From Nitrospirota bacterium (GTDB taxonomy: Bacteria; Nitrospirota; Thermodesulfovibrionia; Thermodesulfovibrionales; JdFR-85): a stretch of 58,592 nt of DNA. A model generated the notes under the pieces. It made no database searches. It saw only the letters and a list, made by a program, of their open reading frames with translations, and was not told the origin of the DNA. The stretch lies in NCBI GenBank assembly GCA_013152485.1, contig JAADGG010000081.1, forward strand, positions 20,621 to 79,212, given 5' to 3'. Shown here piece by piece: positions 3,337 through 35,641 of this stretch. The number at the start of each line of letters is the position of its first letter. Position 1 is the stretch's first letter. The position numbers and the translations under genes were made by a program.

Positions 3337-4445
3337 TCTTCCCTGCTCCTTTCCAATGAGATCAGACTCAACGCAATATCCGCAATCCTCTTCACTGCAT
3401 CAGGCCTTCCAAGCCCCATGGCCTTTGTCTTCATATGTTCCCTCAGCGCAGGATCGTTGTACAGTCTCCTTATCTCGCCGGAGAGCCGCCTGCCGTTGAG
3501 TTCCGCGTTACGGACCATCACCGCCGCGCCCAGCCTCTCGAGTTTTCCGGCGTTGACCTCCTGGTGGTTCGCCGCTGCATAGGGATACGGAACAAGTATC
3601 GAGGGCTTGCCCGTAACGGTTATCTCGGCAAGCGTGGTCGCACCCGCTCTCGATACTACGAGGTCTGCAACGGCATATGCCTCGGGCATCTGATAGATGA
3701 AGGGCGAGACCATCGCCCTGTATCCGTAAGTCCTGTATGCGTCTCTCACCACCTCGAAATCCTTCTCTCCGGTCTGGTGCAGGAACTGTATCTCTTCCTT
3801 GAGGTCAAGAAGATACTGAAGTGCATCCATCACGGCCCTGTTTATGGACTCTGCTCCGGAGCTTCCTCCGAAAACGAATATGGTGAAGGGGCCGTCTGCG
3901 AGCGAGAAGAGTCTGAGGGCAGACGGCCTACTGCCTCTCAGGATCCTTTCCCGCACCGGATTTCCCGTAAGATGAACCTTCTCTCTCGGGAAATAGGCCA
4001 TACTGTCCTGATATGTTATACAGACGGACTTGACGACGTAACCCAACAGCCTGTTTGCCTTTCCTGCAACGGTATTCTGCTCGAGAAGCATTGTGGGTAT
4101 GGAGAGCATCCATGCGGCAGTGAGCGGAGCCAGGGAGGCATAGCCGCCTGAGCCGACCACGATATCAGGGCGGAACTCCCTCATAAACGAGAGGCTCTCC
4201 CTAATCGCGCGGGAAAACCTGTAAAGGGAGCGTACTTTCCTGACAACCGATACTCCCACAAACCCTTCTGCGGGGATGAACCTTATCGTATAGCCCTCCC
4301 GCGGCACGACCCTTGCCTCGATGCCGTGCATCGTGCCCATGAATACTATCTCCGTCCGGGAAGAACGAGCCTTCAGCTCCTCGGCAAGTGCGAGCCCCGG
4401 ATAGAGGTGTCCACCTGTTCCGCCTCCTGCAATGACAACCCTCAC
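3315..4445 (-). CDS. murG: UDP-GlcNAc:undecaprenyl-PP-MurNAc-pentapeptide GlcNAc transferase
   Basis: MurG makes lipid II by adding GlcNAc to lipid I on the inner face of the membrane. I place the start at a GTG (4445-4443) that overlaps the ftsW stop as GTGA. The protein then begins VRVVIAGGGTGGHLYPGLAL, the universal MurG N-terminus, and has 376 residues. A longer frame upstream is only the antisense-like overlap with ftsW. The GT28 C-terminal half shows FVFGGSSGAESINRAV and VVSRAGATTLAEI, the UDP-GlcNAc site. It is part of the overlapping dcw chain. Confidence 0.96.
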   Translation of the reverse strand: MRVVIAGGGTGGHLYPGLALAEELKARSSRTEIVFMGTMHGIEARVVPREGYTIRFIPAEGFVGVSVVRKVRSLYRFSRAIRESLSFMREFRPDIVVGSGGYASLAPLTAAWMLSIPTMLLEQNTVAGKANRLLGYVVKSVCITYQDSMAYFPREKVHLTGNPVRERILRGSRPSALRLFSLADGPFTIFVFGGSSGAESINRAVMDALQYLLDLKEEIQFLHQTGEKDFEVVRDAYRTYGYRAMVSPFIYQMPEAYAVADLVVSRAGATTLAEITVTGKPSILVPYPYAAANHQEVNAGKLERLGAAVMVRNAELNGRRLSGEIRRLYNDPALREHMKTKAMGLGRPDAVKRIADIALSLISLERSREECLNGSE

Positions 4446-5665
4446 AGGGGTCTCCTCCTCAGCCTGCGGGCCCTGAGTCCGGCCCTTCTCCCCGGACGGA
4501 TATCCCGTCCCGGGAGACCGTAGTGTTCGGGGTCGGACCTCGATATCCTCAACAACGTACCCGCGGCCATGAAGTTCACGAGCAGCGAAGAGCCGCCATA
4601 GCTTATGAAAGGCAGGGGAAGTCCCTTTGTGGGGACAAGCCCCGTAACAACCGCAATATTTATAAGTGCCTGCATGGTTATCATGATCGTCAAGCCGAGT
4701 GCGACATAGTAGGAGAACGCACTCTGCGCCCTGCCCGCAATCTTCATCCCGCGAACGAAGAATCCTATGAAGAGGCACAGCACGACGGTTACTCCGGCAA
4801 AGCCGAGTTCCTCTCCTACGAGGGCAAAGATGAAATCCGTGTTGACCTCGGGCAGAAACCTCAGCTTCTGCTTGCTCTCACCGAGCCCAACACCCGTCAG
4901 TCCCCCGGTGCCCAGGGCGATGAAGGACTGCACGAGCTGAAAGCCGCTGCCCCTGGGGTACTTCCAGGGGTCAAGGAATGCAAGCAGCCTCTCCATCCTG
5001 TAGGGTTCCATCAGGAGCTTGACGAGGAAGGGCAGCATTGCAGCGACGGCATACAGGATAAACCTTATCCTGGTGCCTGCCAGAAACAGCATGGTGAACG
5101 TTATGAGTCCAAGGGAGAAGGCACCGCCGAAGTCCGGCTGCATCAGGATCACTCCCTGAAAAGCGATCATGACGAGGAGCGGCTTCATGAAGGCCTTGAA
5201 GCTCTCCCTGTTGTACCGTGGAGTCGAGAGGTAGGCGGCCAGAGAGAGGACCATCGCGAACTTTGCGAGTTCCGCGGGTTGAAAGGTCGACGGCCAGAGC
5301 CTCAACCACCGCCTTGCCCCGTTGATCTTCACTCCAAGGCCTGGAATGAAGACGCAGAGCAACAGAAGCAACGAGAGCGCAAGGAGCGGATATGCGTACC
5401 GCCTCAACGTCGCGGGTTTCATCCTGTAGAAGAACCACATGGAGCCCAGGGCTATAAACAGGGTCATCACGTGCTTCTTCAGGTAGATGAACTGGGCCCC
5501 GGAATCCTCTGCCACGGCGCCTCCAGACTCGGAAACGGGCATAAGCGCGGTTGAACTGTAGACCATCACAACCCCTGCAAAAGAGAGCAGCAGAACTATC
5601 ATGAGCAGCCACCTGTCGGCTGTTCTGCCTTCTTCACCCTGCACTATCGGTCCCCTGCTGTTCAT
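4442..5665 (-). CDS. ftsW: FtsW, SEDS-family peptidoglycan polymerase
   Basis: FtsW is the septal SEDS glycosyltransferase that polymerises lipid II together with the transpeptidase FtsI. The polytopic protein (407 residues from the ATG at 5665) has about ten hydrophobic segments. The family signatures GGTGLTGVGLGESKQKL, NTDFIFALVGEELGF and LPFISYGGSSLLVN are all present. The ATG follows a GGGGGAGG stretch at unusually short spacing; a TTG at 5689 in the same frame is an alternative. The C-terminus ends in an Arg-rich tail. Its stop overlaps murG. Confidence 0.95.
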   Translation of the reverse strand: MNSRGPIVQGEEGRTADRWLLMIVLLLSFAGVVMVYSSTALMPVSESGGAVAEDSGAQFIYLKKHVMTLFIALGSMWFFYRMKPATLRRYAYPLLALSLLLLLCVFIPGLGVKINGARRWLRLWPSTFQPAELAKFAMVLSLAAYLSTPRYNRESFKAFMKPLLVMIAFQGVILMQPDFGGAFSLGLITFTMLFLAGTRIRFILYAVAAMLPFLVKLLMEPYRMERLLAFLDPWKYPRGSGFQLVQSFIALGTGGLTGVGLGESKQKLRFLPEVNTDFIFALVGEELGFAGVTVVLCLFIGFFVRGMKIAGRAQSAFSYYVALGLTIMITMQALINIAVVTGLVPTKGLPLPFISYGGSSLLVNFMAAGTLLRISRSDPEHYGLPGRDIRPGRRAGLRARRLRRRPL

Positions 5666-5784: not shown

Positions 5785-7167
5785 TTACCTGACAACCAGG
5801 GTGTTCCTGAGCCTCATGACAGACTCCTTGAACATGGCTCCCCTGTGCTCGAAGCTCTCGAACATGTCAAAGCTCGCACATCCCGGCGACAGAAGCACCA
5901 CGTCGCCTGCTTCGGCCATGGAGAACGCCGTGGTGACCGCGTCCTTCATGTCCCCGGCCTCGCACGCCTCCGCGATTCCTCCAAGCTGCCCGAGTATCTT
6001 CTGTCTCGCCTCTCCGATAACCACGAGCCCTTTGACCCTTCCCGTCATGTACTTCCTGAGGGTGGTGAAGTCGCTCCCCTTGTCCCTGCCGCCGAGGATC
6101 AGGATCACACCCTGCCGGAACCCCTCGAGAGACTTCACGACCGAGCCGATGTTGGTCCCCTTCGAGTCATTGTAAAACTCCACCCCTTCTATCTCGGCGA
6201 CAAACTCCATCCTGTGTTCAAGGCCCTTGAACTCTGAGAGCACCTCCCTGATTGCCGCAACATCCACACCGCAAAGGTATGAAACCAGCAAGGCAGCCAG
6301 GGCGTTCTCCGTATTGTGGGCTCCCCTTATCCTCAGGTCGCGCACACCCACGATTCCGATCTCACTGCCGTCAATCCCTATGCAGAGCCTGCCGTCTCTG
6401 ATGTAAGCCCCCCGGGGCCTCTCTTCCGTGGAGAAGTAGAAGAGCTCGGAGCGTGCACGACCGCCCAAGTCCCTGACGACCGGGTCATCCAGGTTCAGCA
6501 CGAGGCTGTCACCGGGGGTCTGATTCCTGAAGATCCGGGTCTTTGCCCGGATATAGTCACCGATGTCATCGTAGCGGTCCAGGTGATCCGGAGAGATGTT
6601 CAGTATGGACGCCACGGACGGTGCAAAGTCGCGTGTGCTCTCCAACTGGAAAGAGGAGACCTCGACGACCACGCGGTCCAGGTCTCCGGCACCGCCGTCC
6701 CTGACAACCCCCAGGACCTCCTCGGTTATAGGTGTTCCGATGTTTCCGCCGGCAATCACCCTCTGCCCGCCCCTTGCGAGGATCATGTGAACGAGGGTGG
6801 TCGTGGTCGACTTGCCGTTTGTTCCTGTAATGGCAACCCAGGGGATACCGTATGGACTCAGAATCCTGAAGGCAAGCTCCAGCTCCCCGATCACCTCGAT
6901 GCCGCGCTTTCCGGCCAGGTCGAAGAAGGGCTGGTCGAGGGGAACGCCCGGGCTCACCACCACCGTATCCGCATCGTCAAGGAGGCGGGCCGGATGCCCC
7001 CCTGTCTCAATCCCTACATCAGCGGGAAGCTCTTTCACGGCGTCTGAAAGCGCATCCCGCTCCCTCGCATCCGTCACCGTCACATCGGCACCGAGGAAAT
7101 GGAGCAGCCTCGCCGCGGCGATCCCGCTTCGACCGAGGCCTACTATCACTACATTCCTGGATCTCAT
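5785..7167 (-). CDS. murD: UDP-N-acetylmuramoylalanine--D-glutamate ligase
   Basis: MurD adds D-Glu to UDP-MurNAc-L-Ala. I chose the ATG at 7167, which gives MRSRNVVIVGLGRSGIAAA, the normal MurD N-terminus (460 residues). An in-frame TTG at 7194 preceded by GAGGTG is a possible alternative adding nine residues. The P-loop is AITGTNGKSTTTTLVH, followed by NISPDHLDRYD and FYNDSKGTNIGSV, which is the MurD-type C-terminal motif. A gap of 102 bp separates it from mraY, one of the few real spaces in the cluster. Confidence 0.95.
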   Translation of the reverse strand: MRSRNVVIVGLGRSGIAAARLLHFLGADVTVTDARERDALSDAVKELPADVGIETGGHPARLLDDADTVVVSPGVPLDQPFFDLAGKRGIEVIGELELAFRILSPYGIPWVAITGTNGKSTTTTLVHMILARGGQRVIAGGNIGTPITEEVLGVVRDGGAGDLDRVVVEVSSFQLESTRDFAPSVASILNISPDHLDRYDDIGDYIRAKTRIFRNQTPGDSLVLNLDDPVVRDLGGRARSELFYFSTEERPRGAYIRDGRLCIGIDGSEIGIVGVRDLRIRGAHNTENALAALLVSYLCGVDVAAIREVLSEFKGLEHRMEFVAEIEGVEFYNDSKGTNIGSVVKSLEGFRQGVILILGGRDKGSDFTTLRKYMTGRVKGLVVIGEARQKILGQLGGIAEACEAGDMKDAVTTAFSMAEAGDVVLLSPGCASFDMFESFEHRGAMFKESVMRLRNTLVVR

Positions 7168-21605: not shown

Positions 21606-21977
21606 GTGAAGAACATACTCGTGGTAGAGGACTCCGAGTCTACACGTTCCATGATGAAGACCATTATAGAGGACCTTGGCGAGGATTACCATGTCTTTGA
21701 GGCCGGCACCGGTTTTGAAGCACTGAAGCTCCTTCCCGCAGAAGGGTTCAGCCTGATAATAACCGATATAAACATGCCCGACATAAACGGGATAGAGCTT
21801 ATCAACTTCGTAAAAAGTACGCCCCAGTATAAAGACATTCCCGTCATCATCGTCAGCACCGAAGGCTCGGAGGAAGACAAGGACAGGGGGCTGGCTCTCG
21901 GTGCGGAGGCCTACATCACGAAGCCTTTCAAGCCTGAAGAATTTCAGGAGAAGATCAGGGTGGTCTTGAATCCATGA
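21606..21977 (+). CDS. CheY-like single-domain response regulator
   Basis: A 123-residue receiver domain without an output domain. Visible motifs are the acidic pocket VVEDSEST, the phospho-acceptor Asp in LIITDINMPDINGIEL, the Ser/Thr in VIIVSTEGSEE and Lys in AYITKPFKPEEF. It probably accepts phosphate from CheA. The start is GTG, preceded by GGAGGTGATCA at good spacing. Its stop overlaps the cheA start by 4 bp. It is the first gene of the operon. Confidence 0.92.
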   Translation: MKNILVVEDSESTRSMMKTIIEDLGEDYHVFEAGTGFEALKLLPAEGFSLIITDINMPDINGIELINFVKSTPQYKDIPVIIVSTEGSEEDKDRGLALGAEAYITKPFKPEEFQEKIRVVLNP

Positions 21978-23938
21978 GTTCATCCAAAAAGGAGTTTGTC
22001 TCCGAGGCTGAAGAACTGCTCGAAGAGGCAGAGGAACACCTGATAGAGCTCCAGGAGTCTTCCGAGACAGGTGTTGATCCTGACACCGTCAACGCACTCT
22101 TCCGCTCCATCCACACACTCAAGGGGATCTCCGGACTCTTCGGGCAGGAAGGGCTCAAAGACCTAAGCCACGCCCTCGAGGAGATACTCGACGGTCTCAG
22201 ACGCGGCGATATAGAGCTCACCGACGAGATTATCGCGTTCCTGTTCAAAAACATCGATATCCTGAAGGGTCTGCTCAAAGACGCCGATGAGGGAAGACCT
22301 TCCGACACGGTCCGGTATCTTGAAGACATAAAAGAGTTCCGCAAGGGCATCACGAACCGCGCAGGAAAGGAGCCTCTCAGGGGTGTCATCGACGAGGCGA
22401 TACTGAATGTACTCTCCAGCTACGAAGAGCAGCGTTTGCGGGCCTGCATAGGGCAGAACAGGGGGATATTCATCGCAAGCGTCGTCTTCTCACTTGAAGA
22501 CTTCGACAAGAGACTATCCGAGCTCACGGACAAGATCAAGAAGGAAGGTGAACTGATATCGACGCTGCCTACATCGGAAGACATACCGCAGGACTCCATA
22601 GGCTTCAAGATCCTGTTCGCCTCCGACAGAAACTCCGACTCCCTCAAAACCGCCCTCGGTGTAGAGCCCGTACGGATCGCCGGAAAAAAGACGGCGGAAG
22701 AAAAGAGAGACACGCGCGCACCAGCCCCTTCACTCAGGAGCATCTCCACCACTGTAAGGGTGGACATAGAGAAACTCGACAGGATCCTCAACACGATAGG
22801 GGAGCTGTCGCTTACCAGAGGGGCCTTAAAGAGGATAGAACAGGAGCTTGCAGAGACCTACGGTCACTCGGAACTCGTCTTCGACATTCACCGGGCGACA
22901 CAGAGCCTTGAGAGGAGGCTCCACGAATTGCAGCAGCAGGTGCTGGAGGTCCGGATGGTGCCCATAGGACAGATATTCTCCCGGCTTGCCCAGATAGTGA
23001 GACGGTATTCCAGAGAGATAGGAAAGCCGGTCGACCTCGAGGTCTTCGGCGAGGAGACGGAACTGGACAAGTTCATAGCAGAAGAGATCGTAGATCCATT
23101 GATGCATATCGTAAGAAACGCCATGGACCATGGGATAGAGGGTCCAGAGGAACGGAAGGCCAAGGGAAAACCGGAAAAGGGAACCATGATCGTCAGGGCC
23201 TTCCAACGCGGCAACAGCGTGATAGTGGAGATAGAGGACGACGGCAGGGGGATAGACACGAAAGAGATACGGAGGAAGGCACTGGAGAAAGGAATCATCA
23301 CGGAGGAAACGGACTTGGACGACACGGAGCTGATAGGCTTCATATTCAGGGCCGGGTTCAGTACAAAAGAGACGGTGACGGAGGTATCGGGAAGGGGGGT
23401 CGGAATGGATGTGGTTAAGGAGAGGATTTCCTCCATCGGGGGTTTCGTGGACGTGAAGACCGAGAAAGACACATACACGCGGTTCTCTCTCACGATCCCC
23501 ATCACCCTCGCAATCATAAAGTCGCTCATGGTGAAGGTGGGTACCTACACGTTCGCCCTGCCCTTGTCTTCGATCGTGGAGACACTGACGGTCAACGGCG
23601 ATGCCCTGCAGATGATCGAGGGCAAGATGGTATACAACCTCAGGGGAGAGCTGTTGCCGGTCATGCCGGTGGCGGACCTCTTCGGCACGGGTCCGTACCG
23701 GGTGGAAGACGGATACATAGTGGTTTCCGGATACGGGGAACGGAGGGTCGGTCTCCTCGTGGACGAACTCATAGGCGGACAGGAAATAGTCATAAAGTCC
23801 CTCGGCGCATATTTCGAAGGACTGAAGGGCTTTGCAGGGGTCACAGAGGTCGGCAGGCACAACGCAATACTGGTATTGGACGTCGAGACACTGACAGAGG
23901 AGATCCTGCTGAGGCACAAGGGGTTGATCCATGTATAG
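21974..23938 (+). CDS. cheA: CheA chemosensory histidine kinase
   Basis: The 654-residue kinase begins with an HPt domain whose phosphorylated His is His47 (RSIHTLKGISGLFG). A divergent P2-like segment follows (about residues 130-240), then the dimerisation helices (VDIEKLDRILNTIGELSLTR), the HATPase domain with N box HIVRNAMDHGIE, G1 DDGRGID and G2 GRGVGMDVV, and a C-terminal CheW-like domain. There is no fused receiver. The middle segment (IASVVFSLEDFDKRLSELTD) resembles CheA proteins of pathways controlling other cellular functions rather than the E. coli flagellar CheA; this is inference. Confidence 0.95.
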   Translation: MSSSKKEFVSEAEELLEEAEEHLIELQESSETGVDPDTVNALFRSIHTLKGISGLFGQEGLKDLSHALEEILDGLRRGDIELTDEIIAFLFKNIDILKGLLKDADEGRPSDTVRYLEDIKEFRKGITNRAGKEPLRGVIDEAILNVLSSYEEQRLRACIGQNRGIFIASVVFSLEDFDKRLSELTDKIKKEGELISTLPTSEDIPQDSIGFKILFASDRNSDSLKTALGVEPVRIAGKKTAEEKRDTRAPAPSLRSISTTVRVDIEKLDRILNTIGELSLTRGALKRIEQELAETYGHSELVFDIHRATQSLERRLHELQQQVLEVRMVPIGQIFSRLAQIVRRYSREIGKPVDLEVFGEETELDKFIAEEIVDPLMHIVRNAMDHGIEGPEERKAKGKPEKGTMIVRAFQRGNSVIVEIEDDGRGIDTKEIRRKALEKGIITEETDLDDTELIGFIFRAGFSTKETVTEVSGRGVGMDVVKERISSIGGFVDVKTEKDTYTRFSLTIPITLAIIKSLMVKVGTYTFALPLSSIVETLTVNGDALQMIEGKMVYNLRGELLPVMPVADLFGTGPYRVEDGYIVVSGYGERRVGLLVDELIGGQEIVIKSLGAYFEGLKGFAGVTEVGRHNAILVLDVETLTEEILLRHKGLIHV

Positions 23939-24731
23939 GGAGTTCTACGGCCTGCGGGAGCACCCTTTCAGCAAGACTCCGGACCCTCGCTTTCTCTATC
24001 CGAGCAGGGCACACGAGGAAGCACTCGCAAGACTTCAGCACGTTGCGGAAGAAAGGGAGATAATGATGTTCACAGGCGACATAGGGTGCGGAAAGACCAT
24101 GCTCACAAGGGCGTTGATGGACTCTCTCGACGACAGCTATCGGATAGTCCTCATTCTCAACCCAAGACTGACGGCGAACCAGTTCTTGAGAACGGTTGCC
24201 CGCCGCATGGATGCAGCCCCTGCTTCAAACCACAAGGACGAACTCCTCGAGGCCGTTCACAGAAGGGTCTACGAGTATCACGAAAGCGGCATCACCCCGG
24301 TGATAATCATCGATGAGGCCCAGCTCATACCGAGAAGGGATACGTTTGAGGAAATCAGGCTCCTTACCAATTTCCAGCTCGACGAAACCAACCTCGTAAG
24401 CCTGATCTTCGTGGCACAACCGGACATTCTCAGGAGGATGCGACACAGGGCATATGCGCCTCTCAGACAGAGGATCGGGTTCTTTTATCATCTGCAGCCG
24501 CTGTCCGAGGGCGAAGTCTCTGAATACATCGATCACAGACTGCGTGTGTCTGGCAGGAAGACGAGGCTGTTTACCGATGAAGCGGTCAGCCTCATTCACA
24601 GGTACTCCGGCGGGATACCCAGGCTCATAAACAGCATTGCGGCCTCGGCACTGCTCGATGCATTCGCCGGGGAATCCCGACTGGTCGACAAAGACAACGT
24701 GATGGACGCAGTGGAGGAGCTCGGACTCTGA
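23931..24731 (+). CDS. ExeA/GspA-like AAA+ ATPase
   Basis: A 266-residue ATPase beginning MYREFYGLREHPFSKTPDP, the standard N-terminus of the ExeA/GspA family. Walker A is GDIGCGKT, Walker B is VIIIDEAQL, and YSGGIPRLINSIA is the sensor-2-like region. Relatives assist assembly of type II secretion secretins or act in DNA transposition regulation (TniB-like). It overlaps cheA by 8 bp and the next cheW by 1 bp, so it belongs to the chemosensory operon. Its role there is unknown; it lacks the C-terminal peptidoglycan-binding domain of full ExeA. Confidence 0.85.
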   Translation: MYREFYGLREHPFSKTPDPRFLYPSRAHEEALARLQHVAEEREIMMFTGDIGCGKTMLTRALMDSLDDSYRIVLILNPRLTANQFLRTVARRMDAAPASNHKDELLEAVHRRVYEYHESGITPVIIIDEAQLIPRRDTFEEIRLLTNFQLDETNLVSLIFVAQPDILRRMRHRAYAPLRQRIGFFYHLQPLSEGEVSEYIDHRLRVSGRKTRLFTDEAVSLIHRYSGGIPRLINSIAASALLDAFAGESRLVDKDNVMDAVEELGL

Positions 24732-25423
24732 TGGACATGGCGAAGATCAGGAAGAAGGCCGCACAGGCCGGATCCGGCGCTGAACCGCGGATCAAAGCGG
24801 AACCGAAGAAACCTCCGGCCGACGATGCTGCAGAGACCGGAGCCGCTGTCGGGGAAGACCCCGCGGCAGGACAAGGCAGCGCCGTCGGGCGCGGCGAGAC
24901 AGACAGCCAGGCTACACCGGAGGACTCCCCGGCCGAAGTCCGCGAACCCGAGATCGTACTGCTGTGTTTCAGGCTCGGCTCCGAGACACACGCCTTCCGT
25001 TTGCGGGACGTACAGGAGATCGCCCATCCGCCTGCGGTAACGCCGGTGCCGGGGACTCCGCCCTATGTAAGGGGGCTGAGCTCCCTACGCGGCAAGATGC
25101 TTCCGATCATCGATCTCAAGGCGCGTCTCAACATCACACCTGACGATGAGAGGCCCCCCGCAGCGGAGAGGGCCGCCCAACGGGCAAAGGTGATCATAGT
25201 CAGGGGACCAAAAGGGCCGATCGGTGTCCATGCAGACGGAATCATAGGGGTCAGACGGATGCCCGAAGCCGACCTCTCCCCTGCCCCCGCACACATCGAT
25301 GAAGAGGAGGCGAGGTTCATTGAGGGAGTCGTCATCTCCGAGGGAACGTTCGTGACCGTTCTTAGGGCTGAAGAAGCGCTCACGTTCAAGATAACCGGAA
25401 GGGTGCTTCCAGAAGTCCGCTGA
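24731..25423 (+). CDS. cheW: CheW-like adaptor with long charged N-terminal extension
   Basis: A 230-residue protein. Residues 1 to about 72 are low complexity, rich in Ala, Pro, Glu and Lys, and probably disordered. The CheW domain follows, with LLCFRLGSETHAFRLRDVQEI, PPYVRGLSSLRGKMLPIIDL and IGVHADGIIGVRRM. CheW domains bridge MCPs and CheA. The ATG overlaps the stop of the ExeA-like gene. The extension may hold another partner; that is inference. Confidence 0.9.
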   Translation: MDMAKIRKKAAQAGSGAEPRIKAEPKKPPADDAAETGAAVGEDPAAGQGSAVGRGETDSQATPEDSPAEVREPEIVLLCFRLGSETHAFRLRDVQEIAHPPAVTPVPGTPPYVRGLSSLRGKMLPIIDLKARLNITPDDERPPAAERAAQRAKVIIVRGPKGPIGVHADGIIGVRRMPEADLSPAPAHIDEEEARFIEGVVISEGTFVTVLRAEEALTFKITGRVLPEVR

Positions 25424-25481: not shown

Positions 25482-28334
25482 ATGGGAAAGCTTGAAAAGA
25501 AGGTCCTTGGAGTCGTCATGTCGGTCATTATCCTGGGCACCATATTCGCCGTGACCATCGTAATCTATCTTCAACGTAAAAACATCTACGAGACAGCCCA
25601 GGAGAAGATGTTCGAGACCGCGACCGTAATCAGCACGAGCATCGAAAGGACCATGCTGGAGGGGCGTTCCGAGATCACCAAGGCCATGGCCGGAGACCTC
25701 AAGGCTTTAGAAGGGGTTGAAACCATCACCATCCTGAACCACGAAGGCCGCGTGGCCTTCGACAGGAAGGCCCCTGCAACGGAGAAGGACTATGTCGAAA
25801 GATTCAGGACGAACCTCTCCCCCTACTCCCTGATCGAGAACGGAAGGATGATCATATACAAGCCACTGGTAAAGAGGTCGGCCTGCCAGAAGTGCCACAA
25901 GCTCGACAGCCCCTTCATAGGCGTAGTCAAGGTCTCGATGTCTCTCGACAGCGAGAAGCGGAAGATATCACAGATGGCTACGATCAACATCACCGCATCC
26001 CTGTTCGCCATCAGCATCCTCTCCTTCATAATGTGGCTGCTCCTCAGAAAGATAGTGATCAACCCTATAAAGAAGATCGAACTGGCCGCAAGGCACCTGT
26101 CGGACGGGGACCTGACTTTCAACGTCGACATAGACACTTCCGACGAGATCGGACAGGCGAGCGTTGCGCTTCAGGATGCCCTCCAATCGATATCATCGAT
26201 CCTCCAGAGGGTAAAGGACGTCACGAAAAGGATATCGAAGATCTCTTCGGAGGTAGAAGCCGACTCCAGGGACATCCTCGAGGGCACACAGCTTGAGGCC
26301 GAGGCGATCGAGAACATATCCGCCTCGATAGAGGAGCTGAACGCCGCAATCACCGAGATAGCCGCAAACACCGAAGACCTTGCAGCGTCTTCCGAGCAGA
26401 CGAGGTCAGCGGTCGAAGAGATGGCCGCCAGCACCTCTCAGATCGCAAACAACAGCAACGAGCTCTTCGAGTCTACAGAATCCACCTCGGCATCCATCGA
26501 GGAGCTCTCCTCTTCCATAAAAGAGGTTGCACAGAACGCCGACGAACTCTTCAGGTCGGCCGAGGACACCCTCTCTGCAATCGAAGAGATTACCGCCTCG
26601 ATCAGGGAAGTCGAGGGCAACACCAAGGAGTCGGCCAGGCTGAGCGAGCGGGTCATGAACGAGGCATCCACCTATGGCATGACATCCATCGAGAAGACCA
26701 TCAAGGGGATGGAGCGGATAAAGACATCCGTCGAGAAGACTGCGGAATACATAAAGAAGCTGGGCGGGCGGTCTGAAGAGATAGGCAAGATACTCACCGT
26801 GATCGACGACGTAACGGACCAGACCACCCTTCTTGCGCTCAATGCCGCCATACTGGCGGCACAGGCCGGTGAACACGGGAAAGGATTCTCCGTGGTCGCC
26901 GACGAGATAAAAGACCTTGCAGAGAGGACCTCTTTCTCGACACAGGAGATATCGTCCCTCATACAGACGGTGCAGCAGGAGGTCATGGATGCAGTGGATG
27001 CAATGAAACACGGCCTCGAGGCCGTCAACGAAGGTCTCGGTCTCTCAAAGGAGGCCTCAGAGGCTCTCAGAAAGATCGTCGAGAGCGCACAGCTGTCTTC
27101 AGAGATGTCGACGGCAATAGAACACTCGACCTCCGAGCAGGCAGAGGCCGCAAGGTTCGTCTCGAGATCCATGGAGAACGTGCGCAACATGGCCAGTCAG
27201 ATAGCAAAGGCGACCTCGGAGCAATCAAGGGGTATGAACCTGATAACAAATGCAGCCGAAAAGGTCAAGGATATAGCCATACAGGTGAAGACCGCCACCG
27301 AGGAGCAGTCGACGCAGAGCAGGCAGATAAGGAAGAGCACCGACGTGGTCTCTGAAAAGAGCCAGCAGATAGCCAACGCCATCAATGAGCAGAAGACCGA
27401 GTCCGAACAGATAAAGAGGTCGGCAGAAAACATCTCAGACCTGCCCATGAAGAACAGAAACCTCTCGTTCAAGGTCAACAACTCCCTGAGGTCACTCGTA
27501 AAGGACTCCGAGCTGATCGTTACGGAGATGGAAAGGTTCCGCTTCTCCATATCCGCACGGACCGAAAAGACCATCAGGTTCGGGGTCATCCCCCTCGAGT
27601 CTCCCGCGGACATGCACAGAAAGTTCACGCCTCTTGCAGAGTACCTGAGCAGAAGGCTGGGCAAGAGGGTTGAACTAAAGGTCGGCGTCGATTTCGACAG
27701 CGCCATAAAGGAGATAGGCAGCGGAACCACACAGTTGTGTTACATGACCCCATCCACATACATAAAGGCCAACCGCGACTACGACGTCAGGGTTATCGCC
27801 AAGGCCCTGAGGAACGGCAAGCCCTTCCACCACTCGGTCATAATAGCCAGGAACGACAGCCCGGTATCGAGTATCGAAGACCTCAGGGGAAGGTCCTTCG
27901 CCTTCGGAGACAAGGAGTCCACGTCTTCGCACATAGTGCCGCGCTACATGCTGCTTGAAGCCGGCATAGACCTCAACGACCTGCTGTTCTATAATTATCT
28001 CGGACACCACGACGATGTTGCGAGGGCGGTGCTCTCCGGAGAGTACGACGCCGGAGGAGTCATGGAATCAACTGCAGACAAATACAAGGAGAGGGGCTTG
28101 AAATTCATAAAGTTCTCCGATGAAATCCCCGAGTTCAACATATGTATCACCAGCGAGATGCCCCAGGAGTCCGCAGAGGAGATAAAGTCGGCCATTCTCG
28201 CCCTCAAGGATACCGGAGCGGAGGGGATAGCGGTCCTGAAGTCCATCGATGAGCACTACACGGGGTTTGTAGAGGCCAGTGACGATGACTACACCTGGAT
28301 AAGGAACATCATGTCGAGACTGAAGATGATATGA
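25482..28334 (+). CDS. Methyl-accepting protein with periplasmic c-heme motif and C-terminal PhnD-like domain
   Basis: A 950-residue receptor with an unusual layout. TM1 is about residues 9-30. A periplasmic sensor follows, carrying CQKCH (residues 135-139), a CxxCH covalent heme site, as in the heme-containing PAS-like sensors of Geobacter MCPs GSU0582 and GSU0935. TM2 is about 167-188, then a HAMP domain to about 240 and the signalling coiled coil to about 690 with tip [20 protein letters not shown]. From about residue 695 a PhnD-type substrate-binding domain starts ([58 protein letters not shown]). It is predicted to be cytoplasmic. The reading frame is continuous and the ribosome binding site AAAGGAGAAGAG precedes the ATG. 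Confidence 0.9.
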
Positions 28335-28401: not shown

Positions 28402-30390
28402 ATGAATACTAAAAAGAGACTATCCACGACATTCATACGCAAGGTCCTCGTGGTACTGCTTATCGGACAGTCCTTCATCTGGTACTGGTCCTTCTCCAGA
28501 CACAATATCACCATTGACACCGATCTGGAGAAGAGGATGCAGACGGCGTCGGCCATCATCGGAAGCGTTGCAGCCGCCGTGGATACCGCACAGGGACACA
28601 GATACCTCGAACGAGTGATGGACGGGGCCCTGAGTGATGAAAACATCGTATACATAGAGGTCAGCAGGGAGAGCGACGTCGTGATCAGGAGGTCTACGTC
28701 TCAGGACGACCCGGCGCTGCGCATCGTCAAGACCCCCATAGTAAAAGGGGATTCCGAGATCGGCACTGTGCTGCTGAAATACAAATCCGGGAAGACCGAT
28801 ACGGCCTTCATACTCACAAACCTGACGCTCCAGGGCATCGTCTTCACCGTGCTGACGCTGCTGATATACCTCTTCTTCCAGGGGCACATCGGGACTCAGA
28901 TAGCGAAGTTGAGCACGAATATCGAGAAGGTCACCCTCGGTGACCTGACCCAGAAGGTCGAGATCTCCGAGGACAACGAGATAGGAGTCATCGCAAAGGG
29001 TCTCAACTTCCTGATCGAGCGGCTCCTGATCACCGTGAAGAAACTGAAAAGCGTGGCTGGAAACGTCTCTGCAGCGATAAGCCAGCTCAACCTGACTTTC
29101 AAGAACGTAATCAACGGCATAAGTCACCAGCAGCGGTCCATCGAGGAGATATCGAGGGCAGTGAAGACCGCCTCGGGCGCACAGCTCCAGACGATTACGA
29201 ATACCGAGAAGCTCCTCTCACTGTCGAACGACAATGTATCCGCCCTCCTTGAGATGAGGGCGGCCTCTGAGGAGATAGCGGCCAACATAAGCAGTCTCAA
29301 CAGGAACATCAGCGCTTCATACTCCACGCTGGCGGGCCTTACACGGTCGGCTCAGGAAGTGGCCTCCATGGCGGACAATGCCACGTCGGCGGTCCAGCAG
29401 GCCTCGACCTCCATTGAAGAGATCAACGCCTCGGTCAAGGAAGTGGAAAAGACCATAAAAGAGTCCGCGGAACTGAGCCATCAGACTACGAACATCATTG
29501 CGGAGAAAGGAATGCTCTCGGTTGTGGATGCCATCGAGGGGATGGAGAGGATCGAAGACTCCGTGAACTCTCTCTCCGAGGCGATCAAGAGACTCGGCAG
29601 GAGATCGAGGGACATAGAGAAGATCCTATCCGTCATCAAGGATGTTACGGAGCAGACGGGCATGCTCAGCCTGAACGCACAGATACTCGCTGTACAGGCG
29701 GGAGAGCACGGAAAGAGTTTCTCCGTGGTGGCGGATGAAATGCGGAGCCTGTCGGAGAAGACCGCGGTGTCCACGCACGACATCGCAATCATAGTCTCCA
29801 CCCTCCAGAAGGAGATACGAGAGGCCATGGAGAGTACGATGGAGACCGTCAGGATGGTTGAAGAGGGGAATCATATAGTCCTCAAGACCGGCGATACCCT
29901 GAGGGAGATACTGCACGCCTCCCAGAAGTCCACAAGCATGGCTGAAAGCATCGAACGGGCGGTCGTGCAGCAGGCAAAGGGCCTGGAACTCATAGTCAAC
30001 GCCATAGAGCACATAAAGGGCATGATCATCGATGTAAACAGGACGACCGAGGAACAGGAGCAGGGCACGGCGTCACTGCTTGAGAGCATAAGCTCGATCA
30101 AGGAATCCATGGAGGCCGCAAGGAACGCCACGGACGAGCAGGCGGAGAGCACGAGGTTCATTACGGATAACATCGAGCTCGCAAACGAGAAGACGGCCGA
30201 GATAGCAAGGGCCTCGGCCGAGCAGCAGGAGGTCAACAAGAGGATAATAGAGGCGATGGAAGAGGTCATGGTTATAGGGAAGGAGACGGCGAGAAACGTC
30301 AAGGAGGTCTCCCTCTTCATCTCGTCGCTGCACAACGAAGTTGAAGTATTGAGAAAGGAAGTCGAGCTCTTCAGGACGAGCACTGCATGA
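28402..30390 (+). CDS. Methyl-accepting chemotaxis protein
   Basis: A 662-residue transmembrane receptor. TM1 is about residues 14-32, a periplasmic segment of about 100 residues has no heme motif, TM2 is about 140-160, followed by HAMP and a long coiled coil to the C-terminus. The hairpin tip reads TGMLSLNAQILAVQAGEHGK, further from the consensus than the tip of the preceding MCP. There is no C-terminal pentapeptide tether. It lies 67 bp after the heme MCP and its stop overlaps the next cheW by 4 bp, so the two receptors may work in one array. Confidence 0.93.
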   Translation: MNTKKRLSTTFIRKVLVVLLIGQSFIWYWSFSRHNITIDTDLEKRMQTASAIIGSVAAAVDTAQGHRYLERVMDGALSDENIVYIEVSRESDVVIRRSTSQDDPALRIVKTPIVKGDSEIGTVLLKYKSGKTDTAFILTNLTLQGIVFTVLTLLIYLFFQGHIGTQIAKLSTNIEKVTLGDLTQKVEISEDNEIGVIAKGLNFLIERLLITVKKLKSVAGNVSAAISQLNLTFKNVINGISHQQRSIEEISRAVKTASGAQLQTITNTEKLLSLSNDNVSALLEMRAASEEIAANISSLNRNISASYSTLAGLTRSAQEVASMADNATSAVQQASTSIEEINASVKEVEKTIKESAELSHQTTNIIAEKGMLSVVDAIEGMERIEDSVNSLSEAIKRLGRRSRDIEKILSVIKDVTEQTGMLSLNAQILAVQAGEHGKSFSVVADEMRSLSEKTAVSTHDIAIIVSTLQKEIREAMESTMETVRMVEEGNHIVLKTGDTLREILHASQKSTSMAESIERAVVQQAKGLELIVNAIEHIKGMIIDVNRTTEEQEQGTASLLESISSIKESMEAARNATDEQAESTRFITDNIELANEKTAEIARASAEQQEVNKRIIEAMEEVMVIGKETARNVKEVSLFISSLHNEVEVLRKEVELFRTSTA

Positions 30391-30914
30391 AATACGCCAT
30401 CTTCGAGATCGCCGGCGAGAGTTTCGGCATAGGAATCGACCGGGTCGTCGAAATACTGAAGTATCAGGACCTTCACAGGATTCCGGAACTCCCGGATTTC
30501 GTCTCCGGCGTGATAAACGTAAGGGGGGAAGTCGTTCCCGTCATAGACATGAGGTTGAGGTTCGGAATAGCCGAAGAAGCCCGGCGGCACAGGATCATTC
30601 TCGTCAGGATGGAAGGCGACAAGGTCGGTCTGGTTGTGGATGACGTGACGGACATAGTGGAGATACCGGAGGACGGCATATCGAGTCCCCCGAAGCTGTT
30701 CAAAGGATTCAGGGCGGAGTTCATGAAAGGACTGTGTCAAGGGCGCTCCGACAGCGGTACAGGGCCTGCCGGCAACGGCAAGGTGATAATAATACTGGAT
30801 ATGGAACGGATCCTGACAAGCAGCGAAAAGATCATGTTGAGCACTTCGAGGAAGAAACTGATTACTCACGGGAGGAGACGTGTCAGCAGAAGAGTCCAGG
30901 AAGGCCAGGAATAA
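30387..30914 (+). CDS. cheW: CheW-like adaptor protein
   Basis: A compact 175-residue CheW: MKYAIFEIAGESFGIGIDRV, IPELPDFVSGVINVRGEVVP and VIDMRLRFGI are the standard strands, and VGLVVDDVTDIVEI is the second half. It is the second CheW in the operon and lacks the N-terminal extension of the first. The start overlaps the MCP stop as ATGA. Its last 35 bp overlap the HEAT-repeat gene in another frame. The tail beyond residue 145 is Lys/Arg/Ser rich. Confidence 0.93.
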   Translation: MKYAIFEIAGESFGIGIDRVVEILKYQDLHRIPELPDFVSGVINVRGEVVPVIDMRLRFGIAEEARRHRIILVRMEGDKVGLVVDDVTDIVEIPEDGISSPPKLFKGFRAEFMKGLCQGRSDSGTGPAGNGKVIIILDMERILTSSEKIMLSTSRKKLITHGRRRVSRRVQEGQE

Positions 30915-32856
30915 AGACATCGAGCTGAAGCGGCGGAAGATACTCGCTTCAAAGGGCGTACCCGAAGCCCTGGGCTACGTCATGGATTCCTTCAAAGACG
31001 ACAGCTGGCGTGTGAGAAAGACCGCCCTCGATGTCCTGATCGAGGGGTTCAGTCCGGACGCCTACGTCAAAGACCTGATCGGACTGCTCCATGTCGAGGA
31101 CAATGCGGGTGCACGCAATACCGCCATAGAGGCCCTCGTCAGACTCGGGAAAAAAGCGGTTCCCGATCTCACCGCCGCCTTTGAGACCGACAATCCAGGC
31201 GTGAGAAAATTCATAATCGATGTCCTGGGTGTCATAGGCGGGAAAGAGGTCGTCCCATTGTTCCTGAAGGCCATAAGGGATGAGGACGACAACGTCAGGG
31301 CCTCGGCCGTAGAGTATCTCGGAAGGCTCAAGGAGCCGTCAGTGATAGACTCTCTGGTGGAGATCATCGAGACCGGAAAGCTCTGGACGGCCTATCCCGC
31401 GGTGAACGCCCTGGGAAAGATCGGCGACACAAGGGCCTTGCCCCACCTGTTGAAGGCACTCCGGAACAGTCTTCTTACAGAGCCGGCCCTCAAGGCACTG
31501 TCAGAGTTTTCAGTCCCGGAGACGCTGAAGGAGATAATACCCCTGCTCCGAAGCCGGAGACGATCCACCGTAGAGGAGACGATCAAGACCATCGAGAGGT
31601 TCTATCAGGCCGGTGTGCCCGAGGAATTCATATCCAAACAACTGCACGAGATACTCGGAGACGATGCCTGTGAAATATTCGAGAGGCACATAAGCCACAA
31701 AAACAAGGAAGTGAAGGGCTCTGCAATCCTCCTTCTCGGTCTCCTGTGCGATCACCGGGCATTGGGACCGCTTCTCGAGCTCTCCGAAGACGAATCCTCC
31801 ATGGATGCGGTCAAGCGTTCGATGGTCTTCATAGGCCGGCGGAACCCCCACTACCTCATTCCGCTGACAAGGACGGGGGCCCCCGAAAGGCGGAGGCTGA
31901 TAGTCGAGGTCATGTCCGAGCTCGAAGACCCTCTCTTCCGTGACACACTCATGGTCTTGCTCAAGGACGACGACGGGCATGTGAAAGCGCATGCTGCAAG
32001 GGGACTGGGCAGGATAGGGGACAGGAGGGCCGCAGAAGAGATATTTCATCTCCTTTCACATCCATATCCCGACGTACAGGACGCTGCCGTAGCGGCACTG
32101 ACCGAGTTGAGCGCATTCCTCGACGTCTCCGAACTGATCGACAAGCTCAAGTCTCCCGATGTGCTCTTGAGGAAAAACACAGCCCTGATTCTGGGTAATA
32201 TCAGGGCCGTCGAGTCTCTCGAAAAACTCGGTTTTGCACTCAAGGATGAAGCAGAAGAGGTACGGAAGGCCGCGGTTGTCTCGATATCCATGATCGGAAC
32301 CGAAAATGCCGCCAGGTACCTCCATACGGCTCTCACTGATGAATCCGCCGAGATACGTGCCATAGCCACGGAAAGCCTCTCGCTCTGTGACGACGGTCCC
32401 GAGGTCCTGAGCTCCGTCATAATAATGACGAGAGATCCCGACGAGGGGGTCAGGGCATCGGCAGCCAAGGCACTTTCCAGATACCATAACGAGTCGTCTC
32501 TCAGAACACTGCTGGGATTGTTGAGAGACGGCAACGGCTTTGTCGTGACTCAGGCCATGGAGTCGCTGAGCCTCTTCAGCCACAGCACGGAGGCCCGGGA
32601 GGCACTGGTCAGGTTGAGCCTTTCGGATGACAGCGAGATCCGCAGGACGGCAATCCTGTCACTGTCATCGTTTCATGACGTGGAAGACCTGCTGGAAACC
32701 CATCTCTCCAGCAGCGACTGGGCAACGAGGCTTGCCGCCGTGCAGGCACTGTCACGGATAGGTTCCCGAAAATCGCGGGCAGGGCTGGAGGGGATCTACG
32801 ACGTCGAGACCGACCCTACTGTCAGGAGGGCCATCGAGGTGGCTTTAGGTGTTTGA
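30880..32856 (+). CDS. HEAT-repeat protein of the chemosensory operon
   Basis: A 658-residue, all-helical repeat protein. From about residue 20 to the end it consists of HEAT/PBS-lyase-like repeats of about 31 residues, for example VRASAVEYLGRLKEPSVID and VKAHAARGLGRIGDRRAAEE. There is no signal peptide or membrane segment and no catalytic motif, so it is a cytoplasmic scaffold candidate. The start is GTG at 30880 with GGAGG just upstream, inside the end of cheW; the stop overlaps the GTG of cheR. HEAT proteins are known in some other non-flagellar chemosensory clusters. The partner is unknown. Confidence 0.85.
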   Translation: MSAEESRKARNKDIELKRRKILASKGVPEALGYVMDSFKDDSWRVRKTALDVLIEGFSPDAYVKDLIGLLHVEDNAGARNTAIEALVRLGKKAVPDLTAAFETDNPGVRKFIIDVLGVIGGKEVVPLFLKAIRDEDDNVRASAVEYLGRLKEPSVIDSLVEIIETGKLWTAYPAVNALGKIGDTRALPHLLKALRNSLLTEPALKALSEFSVPETLKEIIPLLRSRRRSTVEETIKTIERFYQAGVPEEFISKQLHEILGDDACEIFERHISHKNKEVKGSAILLLGLLCDHRALGPLLELSEDESSMDAVKRSMVFIGRRNPHYLIPLTRTGAPERRRLIVEVMSELEDPLFRDTLMVLLKDDDGHVKAHAARGLGRIGDRRAAEEIFHLLSHPYPDVQDAAVAALTELSAFLDVSELIDKLKSPDVLLRKNTALILGNIRAVESLEKLGFALKDEAEEVRKAAVVSISMIGTENAARYLHTALTDESAEIRAIATESLSLCDDGPEVLSSVIIMTRDPDEGVRASAAKALSRYHNESSLRTLLGLLRDGNGFVVTQAMESLSLFSHSTEAREALVRLSLSDDSEIRRTAILSLSSFHDVEDLLETHLSSSDWATRLAAVQALSRIGSRKSRAGLEGIYDVETDPTVRRAIEVALGV

Positions 32857-33733
32857 CAGGAGAGAGAACACCGTCCTCTCCGAGGATGTATTCAGGCTCC
32901 TCAGGGAGCTGATACGGGACTACTGCGGCATATACTTCGATGACAACTCGAGGTACCTTCTCGAAAAACGCCTGTCGGCGAGACTCAGGGCGAACAACAT
33001 AAGCAACTTCCGTGACTACTACAGGTACCTCCTCTATGACGGAAACCGCGAAAACGAACTCGCCGAGATAATGGACGTGCTCACGGTGAACGAGACCTAC
33101 TTCTTCAGGGAGAAGAACCAGCTCCTCTCTTTCAGCGAGGAGATACTTCCCGAACTGAGGAGGAAAAACAGGCATACGGGAAAGCTGAGGATATGGTCGG
33201 CAGGTTGTTCAACAGGTGAAGAGCCGTATACCATAGGCATACTGATACTCGAAAGCAACCTGTTCAACGGATGGGACGTCGAGATCATAGGAAGCGACAT
33301 CAACAGAAGGGTGCTACAGACCGCAAGAAGGGGGGTTTACAGGCAGAACTCCTTCAGGTGCATTGACAGTTACTACCTGGACAAGTACTTCGAACCCCTT
33401 GAGGACGGCTCCTTCAGAATAACGGACAAGGTGAAAAGACTCCTCAGTTTCGGATATCTCAACCTGCTCGACCCTGTAAAGATGCGTTTCATGGGAAAGA
33501 CCGACGTGGTCTTCTGCAGAAACGCACTGATATATTTCGACATGCAATCACGAAGGAAGGTGGTTGACGGTTTTTACAACGTATTGGCCGAAGGGGGATA
33601 CCTGCTCCTGGGACACGCGGAGTCGCTGATAAACATGTCGACCGCCTTTGCACTCAAGCACCTAAAGCGAGACCTCGTATACCAGAAACCCGAAACGTCG
33701 TCACAGGGGGCCGTACAATGCCGGAAAGGATAA
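32849..33733 (+). CDS. cheR: CheR chemoreceptor methyltransferase
   Basis: CheR methylates glutamates of MCPs using S-adenosylmethionine. The 294-residue protein has the N-terminal helical domain with VLTVNETYFFREKNQLLSF and the SAM domain with RIWSAGCSTGEEPYTIGIL, IIGSDINRRVLQTARRGVY and VVFCRNALIYFD. The start is GTG, overlapping the HEAT gene stop by 8 bp. It overlaps cheB by 16 bp. It has no TPR or other extension. Confidence 0.96.
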   Translation: MFDRRENTVLSEDVFRLLRELIRDYCGIYFDDNSRYLLEKRLSARLRANNISNFRDYYRYLLYDGNRENELAEIMDVLTVNETYFFREKNQLLSFSEEILPELRRKNRHTGKLRIWSAGCSTGEEPYTIGILILESNLFNGWDVEIIGSDINRRVLQTARRGVYRQNSFRCIDSYYLDKYFEPLEDGSFRITDKVKRLLSFGYLNLLDPVKMRFMGKTDVVFCRNALIYFDMQSRRKVVDGFYNVLAEGGYLLLGHAESLINMSTAFALKHLKRDLVYQKPETSSQGAVQCRKG

Positions 33734-34776
33734 AGGTCCTGGTTGTCGATGACTCCGCCTTCAGCAGGCAGACGATCAAGAACATGCTGCTGAAGGCTCC
33801 GGTGGTCGATGTGGTGGGGGTCGCCGTGGACGGGATCGACGCAATAAGAAAGACCCTCCGTTACAGGCCGGACATAATAACTCTCGACGTCGAGATGCCG
33901 AAGATGGACGGGTTCAGCTTCCTGCGGTGGCTTATGAGGGAACGTCCAACGCCCGTAATAATGGTCAGCTCACACTCGGACAGCAAGACCGTGTTCAAGG
34001 CACTGGAGCTGGGAGCCGTCGATTTCATCGCCAAGCCGACCAAACGGGCTTCCTTCGAGCTTCAGAAGATCGAGAACGACCTGCTGTCAAAGGTCCGCAA
34101 CATAGATGCCTCCTCTCTGCACAGGCTCAGCAGGAACCTCAGATCCGTATCCGCGATGAGAGAGGCGGAGAGGCTTCCGGCGCCGCCAGGAAAACATCCG
34201 GACGGGATTGTGGCCATAGGCGCCTCCACGGGCGGTCCCCAGGCGCTTCAGCTGATTCTGACGGCGATACCCGGAAACTTTCCCGTGCCGATCGTGATAA
34301 GCCAGCACATGCCGAGGGGGTTCACGGCCTCGTTCTCGGAGAGGCTTAACAGGCTTGCTGAAATACGGGTCAAGGAGGCCGAAGACGATGAGCCTATCGA
34401 GCCCGGAGAGGCGCTGATATGTCCGGGCGGTCACCATCTGCAGTTCAGAAAGAGGGGGGAGCGGGTCTTTACCAGGATCAGGGACGCAGATGAAAACGAC
34501 CGCTACGTGCCCTCTATAGACCTCATGATGGAATCCGCAGCTGAAATATTCAACGGGATGACCCTCGGCATCGTACTGACCGGAATGGGGAATGACGGGG
34601 CAAAGGGGATGCTGGAAATTTTCAGGCAAGGCGGTTATACTATTACCGAGTCTGAAGAAACGGCCGTTGTTTTCGGCATGCCCCACGAGGTCATTAAAGC
34701 AGGAGCAGCACGAAAGGTCCTGCCGCTCAAGGCGGTTCCCTCTGAACTTATACACGTAGTGATGCGGGAACAGTAG
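33718..34776 (+). CDS. cheB: CheB protein-glutamate methylesterase
   Basis: CheB removes methyl groups from MCPs and is switched on by phosphorylation from CheA. The 352-residue protein has a receiver domain (VVDDSAFSRQ, DIITLDVEMPKMDGF with the acceptor Asp, VSSHSDSKTV) and a C-terminal methylesterase domain with the catalytic Ser in VAIGASTGGPQALQ, the His in VISQHMPRGFTASF and the Asp in TGMGNDGAKGM. CheR and CheB together mean this pathway has a full adaptation system. Confidence 0.97.
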   Translation: MPERIKVLVVDDSAFSRQTIKNMLLKAPVVDVVGVAVDGIDAIRKTLRYRPDIITLDVEMPKMDGFSFLRWLMRERPTPVIMVSSHSDSKTVFKALELGAVDFIAKPTKRASFELQKIENDLLSKVRNIDASSLHRLSRNLRSVSAMREAERLPAPPGKHPDGIVAIGASTGGPQALQLILTAIPGNFPVPIVISQHMPRGFTASFSERLNRLAEIRVKEAEDDEPIEPGEALICPGGHHLQFRKRGERVFTRIRDADENDRYVPSIDLMMESAAEIFNGMTLGIVLTGMGNDGAKGMLEIFRQGGYTITESEETAVVFGMPHEVIKAGAARKVLPLKAVPSELIHVVMREQ

Positions 34777-34819: not shown

Positions 34820-35641
34820 ATGGACAAGAAACGCGGGATACTGAAAAAAGCCGATGAGTTCCTGCAGATTTTCAAGCAGGGAGAGGAGTTCACCAGGAAC
34901 CTCCTGAGCGAGAACGAACGTCTCCGGTTCCGGATCGCGGAGCTGGAGGAAGCCCGTACGCAGGACCTGAATGCGGCAAAGATACGCCATTATGAAGAAC
35001 ACATACGCATGCTGAAAGACGAGCTGGAGTCCCTGAAGGAACGATTCAAGAGGGTCGAGACCGAGAACAGGAACTTCGAGCAGAAGTACCTGCTCGTCGC
35101 CGAGGAAAACAACAACCTCGCAAACCTATATGTCGCAAGCTACCAGCTGCACTCCACACTCGATTACGAAGAGGTCATAAAGATAGTCGTGGAGATCATC
35201 ATCAACCTTATAGGGGCGGAAAGGTTCGCCGTCATGCTGATGGATGAAAGGCTCGAAAAGCTGGTACCGATAGCCTCAGAGGGCATAAGCACAGCCGCGA
35301 TAGCAGGGGTGTTCCCTGAAGACGGTATCATAGGGACGGTACTGAAGGAGGGTGAGAGTTATTTTTCGGAAGAACCTCTACAGGAAGGCTCGGATGATCC
35401 CGCAAGTCCTTCGGTATGCATACCCCTGAAGATCAAGGAGCATGTGATCGGTGTGATTGCAATCTACTCGTTTCTCGTCCAGAAGAGGAGCTTTTCCAAT
35501 GTCGATTACGAGCTCTTCAATCTCCTGGCAGGCCATGCAGCCACCGCCATATTTTCATCAAGGCTCTACACACGCTCTGAGAGGGAGTTCAGAACCATCC
35601 AGAACTTCCTGGAACTTCTGAAGGGAAAATCCAAGCAATGA
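34820..35641 (+). CDS. Coiled-coil protein with C-terminal GAF domain
   Basis: A 273-residue soluble protein. Residues about 10-100 form a charged coiled coil (LLSENERLRFRIAELEEA, LKDELESLKERFKRVETE). A GAF domain occupies about 105-250 (LDYEEVIKIVVEIIINLIGA, ERFAVMLMDERLEKLVPIAS, IPLKIKEHVIGVIAIYSF). GAF domains bind small molecules or mediate dimers; there is no kinase or cyclase output. It lies between cheB and the last cheY with a short gap on each side, so it is probably co-transcribed. It may be an extra sensor or scaffold; the ligand is unknown. Confidence 0.8.
   Translation: MDKKRGILKKADEFLQIFKQGEEFTRNLLSENERLRFRIAELEEARTQDLNAAKIRHYEEHIRMLKDELESLKERFKRVETENRNFEQKYLLVAEENNNLANLYVASYQLHSTLDYEEVIKIVVEIIINLIGAERFAVMLMDERLEKLVPIASEGISTAAIAGVFPEDGIIGTVLKEGESYFSEEPLQEGSDDPASPSVCIPLKIKEHVIGVIAIYSFLVQKRSFSNVDYELFNLLAGHAATAIFSSRLYTRSEREFRTIQNFLELLKGKSKQ

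Follow-up and report, generated by a model that had tools for sequence, protein, structure and literature searches.

What signal might reach a chemoreceptor through a binding domain that is attached behind its signalling hairpin, and on which side of the membrane would that domain operate? The question is raised by a gene within a 58,592-nucleotide stretch of DNA from a Nitrospirota bacterium (hereafter the window). Periplasmic-type binding domains are nearly always studied outside the membrane. The gene begins with an ATG codon at position 25482, immediately preceded by AAAGGAG, and its coordinates, frame and length are those given in the original prediction (Table 1). The encoded protein consists, in order, of a first membrane helix, a periplasmic c-heme sensor, a second membrane helix, a HAMP domain, a very long MCP hairpin and a C-terminal domain of the PhnD/PtxB type (hereafter the PBP domain).

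Table 1. Features of the receptor and of the surrounding chemosensory operon, in window coordinates
Feature	Position	Strand	Basis or remark
CheA	21974..23938	+	Hpt, H-kinase_dim, HATPase_c and CheW domains
AAA_22 ATPase	23931..24731	+	PF13401, E=6e-24
CheW, directly upstream of receptor	24731..25423	+	PF01584
Whole receptor gene	25482..28334	+	950 aa plus stop; orthologues known
TM1, residues 10-28	25509..25565	+	hydropathy 2.67; shared by all orthologues
c-heme sensor, residues 29-169 (sCache_heme / Mcp40H-20_sensor relative)	25566..25988	+	PF21563, 3b47, 3b42
M58, aligned with distal axial ligand Met60 of GSU0935	25653..25655	+	kept in 41/42
CQKCH, residues 135-139, heme c attachment motif	25884..25898	+	29/29 orthologues, 42/42 sensors
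TM2, residues 170-188	25989..26045	+	hydropathy
HAMP, residues 187-237	26040..26192	+	Pfam PF00672, E=2e-9
MCP coiled-coil hairpin, residues about 238-690, tip E464	26193..27551	+	64H-like; Pfam MCPsignal 419-569
PhnD/PtxB-type type-II PBP, residues 700-937	27579..28292	+	PF12974, 5o2j, Foldseek
L705, replaces phosphite-cap D22 of Te_PtxB	27594..27596	+	Leu in 59/67
S813-T814-S815, oxyanion-binding STS motif	27918..27926	+	aligned with PtxB S124/T125/S126
H843, oxyanion-binding histidine	28008..28010	+	aligned with PtxB H155/H160
F885, replaces phosphite-cap Y208 of Te_PtxB	28134..28136	+	Phe in 64/67
Second MCP, no PBP	28402..30390	+	arms 227/227, hairpin length same as receptor
Second CheW	30387..30914	+	domain search
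HEAT-repeat protein	30880..32856	+	PF13646, E=2e-79
CheR (32849-33733) and CheB (33718-34776)	32849..34776	+	operon annotation
GAF-domain protein, end of cluster	34820..35641	+	operon annotation

The HAMP and MCP modules that had been proposed are both recognised by Pfam, with the MCPsignal match reaching E=3e-42. Beyond residue 200, the highest hydropathy of any 19-residue segment is 1.0, which leaves no third membrane helix. Orthologues carry two membrane helices at matching places and nothing comparable further on, and neither a membrane helix nor a signal peptide precedes the PBP domain in 29 orthologues. Thus, a third membrane helix or an inverted topology is ruled out by hydropathy. Because there is no membrane helix beyond residue 188, the C-terminal domain is predicted to be cytoplasmic, as had been claimed from the topology. 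Its placement after the HAMP and MCP modules is not that of the exported PhnD/PtxB family.

The CxxCH motif does lie between the two membrane helices, and it is unchanged in all 42 aligned sensors although identity drops to 23%. The sole invariant residues among these sensors are G89, P128, C135, C138, H139 and G147. A profile built from the 42 sensors finds GSU0582 (3b47, E=2e-15) and GSU0935 (3b42, E=4e-13) in the PDB, which supports homology with the heme-containing MCPs of Geobacter. The CxxCH of the receptor aligns with that of both structures and lies between strands, towards the C-terminus of the sensor domain. Against PF21563, the receptor's sensor scores 24.5 bits where the curated cut-off is 27, and this family is hit by every one of the 42 relatives at E<=0.01 (best E=5e-16). 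The same genome encodes the cytochrome c maturation protein ResB, and a heme on this sensor would be attached covalently. The residue that corresponds to M58 in GSU0935, Met60, is the distal heme ligand, and work on the Geobacter proteins has argued for redox sensing in which this methionine ligand is lost upon oxidation (PMC8396549). The fold has been assigned to sCache_heme, and Nitrospirota are one of the groups in which it is reported to be enriched; a member with HAMP and membrane helices that was tested in that study behaves as a nitric oxide (NO) sensor (PMC12889525).

The hairpin is unusually long and, judged by its arms, 64H-like, 64H being a recognised MCP class (PMC6943060). Its N-terminal arm spans about 226-227 residues from HAMP to tip and its C-terminal arm about 226-234 from tip to PBP domain, which is close to 32 heptads per arm. 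Homologues with other sensors have N-terminal arms of 225-233 and C-terminal arms of 234-238 residues, and two receptors (L080 and L081) are shorter, with arms of 141 and 143 residues (about 40H). In every homologue compared, the PBP domain starts at the level of HAMP, whatever the length of the hairpin. Since the arms are equal in length, the PBP domain should hang beside HAMP, where the hairpin is closest to the membrane, on the cytoplasmic side.

The receptor gene sits within a full chemosensory operon, and a CheW gene lies directly 5' of it in 39 of 46 homologous loci. The equal hairpin lengths of the receptor and the second MCP suggest that the two can join one array. These two proteins also share an unusual tip, in which hydrophobic or Gln residues replace the conserved Glu and Arg of E. 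coli-type receptors (whose tip reads QILAVQAGEHGKS). Both the AAA_22 ATPase and the large HEAT-repeat protein are retained in the corresponding operon of a relative (L086). The receptor's own genome contains both flagellin and PilT-family genes.

The proposal that residues 690-950 form a PBP fold is confirmed by PF12974 (Phosphonate-bd), which is matched over model positions 1-242 of 242 with E=2.2e-67 and a score of 227 bits (cut-off 27). The domain also exceeds the cut-off of NCBIfam TIGR01098 (159 bits versus 112) and falls below that of the PhnD equivalog TIGR03431 (146 bits versus 261 required). Among solved structures, it is closest to those of the phosphite-binding protein PtxB (5o2j, E=1e-32). 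AlphaFold prediction from six close sequences gave a modest model (pLDDT 58.6 for the PBP domain and 50.1 for the full length), and Foldseek again placed PtxB among the top matches (E=1e-16, prob 1.0), in agreement with the sequence result; the TM-scores are about 0.5 because the model is poor. Pocket geometry was taken from the sequence alignment to PtxB, and the AlphaFold models were used for no residue-level claim.

Conservation of the pocket was counted over 67 fused PBP domains. S813 is present in all 67, T814 in 50, S815 in 52 and H843 in 63, with a minority of domains varying at the second and third STS positions and at the histidine. Residues Y55 and Y100 of PtxB correspond to F738 and H783 in the receptor. 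Variability at the six oxyanion and cap positions is low, as 54 of 20,000 sets of PBP positions drawn at random reached an equally low value. In addition, the PBP part exhibits a dN/dS of about 0.05 relative to three relatives of about 90-94% identity, which indicates purifying selection. With the STS...H site largely kept and its variability low, the ligand pocket looks functional and seems to be under selection, and it presumably binds a ligand.

The domain combinations found in relatives suggest that the PBP domain is a modular C-terminal add-on. There are six homologues (L051, L053, L070, L071, L075 and L076) that keep the PBP domain and lack the periplasmic sensor, their two membrane helices being so closely spaced that no room is left for one. 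Thus, the PBP domain is the only recognisable input domain in these proteins. Further homologues carry sCache (Cache) or 4HB sensors joined to the same PBP domain. At L086 (genome G017) the same operon and heme sensor are found, and the protein ends at the hairpin. Three more genomes (G055, G204 and G275) also lack the PBP domain, as judged by match range. Because it is missing in relatives from the same operon, the PBP domain is not essential to the receptor. In a tree of PBP domains, all fused domains form one group (support 0.89) in which 40H-type receptors are nested, with low support values inside the group. This nesting suggests that there was one recruitment, after which the PBP domain seems to have moved between hairpin lengths.

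One possibility is that the PBP fold has lost small-ligand binding and now has a structural role or provides a docking site, be it for an adaptor, for CheR/CheB or for a transporter. Such a role would suit a modular addition that can be absent, as at L086, while the operon is kept, and SBP folds are known to act via protein contacts. However, conservation at the oxyanion and cap positions exceeds that of PBP positions chosen at random, and S813 is invariant, which pure docking would not predict. We consequently regard this explanation as unlikely, while according it some weight.

If the pocket instead binds a small anion, as we prefer to think, the nature of that anion must be weighed. The original prediction had named a phosphorus oxyanion or another small ligand. 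The close relationship to PtxB and the retained STS-H site would favour a receptor that senses reduced phosphorus inside the cell by binding phosphite or a phosphonate. However, the specificity of Te_PtxB (from Trichodesmium) for phosphite is conferred by D22 and Y208, and the Y208F substitution alone costs about three orders of magnitude in affinity (PMC5700983). Both cap residues are replaced in the receptor, by L705 and F885, as they are in nearly all fused homologues (Table 1). This change weakens the phosphite reading, and the domain was rejected as a phosphite-specific PtxB orthologue. A link to phosphonate catabolism was likewise set aside, as the C-P lyase gene phnJ was not found in the receptor's own genome, and no ABC transporter gene occurs among the operon neighbours examined. 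Thus, it is doubtful that the receptor is a sensor of phosphite or phosphonate.

A sulfur oxyanion, or an organic phosphate or phosphonate-like anion, is at least as likely as phosphite, and phosphate esters and phosphonates are possible candidate ligands. PhnD-like domains are known to sense tetrathionate and thiosulfate in the TtrS/ThsS kinases (PMC5408782). This precedent, the presence of dsrA in the receptor's own genome and the absence of phnJ modestly favour a sulfur oxyanion. Perhaps the receptor integrates redox or NO sensing by the periplasmic c-heme with a cytoplasmic PhnD-type sensor of an intracellular sulfur oxyanion such as sulfite or thiosulfate, a reading that we offer tentatively. 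If it is true, sulfur-metabolising Nitrospirota would steer by the outside redox state versus the load of their own respiratory intermediates.

Full-length orthologues with 43-94% identity are found in many independent genomes, including many among the nearest 60 genomes. The original prediction had called for a search for the same architecture elsewhere, and in a sample of 396 genomes, all from Nitrospirota and thus speaking for Nitrospirota, there are matches at E<=1e-100 in 113. A count of the match table gives 92 proteins from 86 of these genomes that read through from the MCP into the PBP domain. Thus, the architecture is widespread in Nitrospirota and not a rarity of one genome. Relatives that bear a name comprise Nitrospirae/Nitrospirota MAGs and bacterium BMS3Bbin07, and a scan of genome contigs gave close relatives only. 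None of 72,556 plasmid records holds a fusion that spans 80% or more of the query, and the best matches, from Pseudomonas, are separate neighbouring genes. A search of phages with the PBP domain returned a single match of 22% identity, and no relative was found in viral contigs.

That the C-terminal domain is periplasmic, or that an MCP gene and a separate PBP gene have been joined by artefact, would accord with the usual periplasmic role of PhnD-family proteins and with the separate neighbouring genes on Pseudomonas plasmids, but both ideas are very improbable given the topology of the 29 orthologues and the number of sampled genomes in which the fusion is read, and the identical fusion in many genomes rules out a frameshift or misassembly.

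Several other loci carry PF12974 proteins in different arrangements. In the receptor's own genome, three adjacent genes (L088:6496-10296) encode an ABC_sub_bind protein, a PF12974 protein without further domains and a histidine kinase with HAMP and GAF domains. A multiheme cytochrome gene lies just upstream (3502-4512), and the trio is possibly a separate binding-protein/kinase sensor. Related genomes (L082, L083, L084 and L085) encode proteins of 570-631 amino acids with two tandem Phosphonate-bd domains, in which R and G occupy the cap positions. In one relative (L067:256-10496), two MCP-PBP paralogues lie on either side of a gene (5930-6808) for a stand-alone PF12974 protein. A plasmid of Pseudomonas veronii (L101:767-5867, NZ_CP142043.1) carries separate, consecutive genes for an EAL protein, a PhnD-like binding protein and an MCP.

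The conserved pocket, the topology and the operon point to a dual-input chemoreceptor, a reading that we hold to be rather likely and in which an external redox or nitric oxide signal is probably combined with the level of an intracellular anion. Outside the membrane, a c-heme sensor of the swapped-dimer type, with predicted His139/Met58 ligation, would respond to redox state or NO binding by a change in heme ligation, and the signal would be passed on via TM2 and HAMP. Inside, the C-terminal arm leads into the PhnD-type clamshell, which would bind a small anion that is held by the S-T-S...H site and by the hydrophobic Leu/Phe cap. At the base of the hairpin, opening and closing of the clamshell might then bias the four-helix bundle that also receives the heme signal, and in this way the PBP domain would be coupled to CheA. 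The summed signal would travel to the hairpin tip and from there to the CheW/CheA pair encoded in the operon, whose CheR/CheB would provide adaptation.

Each domain of the receptor is already known, and it is their combination that constitutes a new domain architecture. In the literature, mostly in non-subscription journals, we found no description of an MCP that ends in a cytoplasmic domain of the PhnD type (PF12974), nor of a c-heme sensor combined with a PhnD-type domain on an MCP. In many Nitrospirota, a binding domain thus appears to have been relocated to the cytoplasm and fixed in a membrane-proximal position on a chemoreceptor hairpin, beside a heme sensor. If the PBP domain binds a ligand, one receptor would report from both sides of the membrane, and cells might steer directly by the balance of external electron acceptors versus an internal metabolite. 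The receptor also offers a testable case of a C-terminal input domain that controls an MCP, for which natural variants lacking either domain exist.

The PBP domain resembles PtxB (5o2j, 5jvb) and the other PF12974 proteins in its type II PBP fold and STS-H oxyanion site, with 27-30% identity in Foldseek alignments. Unlike PtxB and PhnD, it is predicted to be cytoplasmic, is fused to an MCP, has the L705/F885 cap and lacks adjoining ABC transporter genes. In sequence and fold it also matches the arsenite- and arsenate-linked PhnD-like proteins AioX and ArrX, which are PF12974-type relatives with roles in signalling. However, AioX and ArrX are separate periplasmic proteins that partner with kinases and are not fused to a chemoreceptor.

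TtrS and ThsS share with the receptor a fused PF12974 sensor domain and show that sulfur oxyanions can be sensed by members of this family (PMC5408782); the likeness is one of domain family, and their domain is periplasmic and N-terminal on a histidine kinase. The closest parallel for the remainder of the protein is provided by GSU0582 and GSU0935 of Geobacter sulfurreducens, with which it has in common the two membrane helices, the periplasmic CxxCH c-heme sensor, a methionine at the Met60 position, HAMP and the MCP domain. The Pfam family of the sensor is named after 40H receptors, whereas the hairpin is here about 64H long. GSU0582 and GSU0935 as described end at the MCP domain, with no PBP reported (PMC3460858, PMC8396549), and to this plan the Nitrospirota receptor adds the PBP domain.
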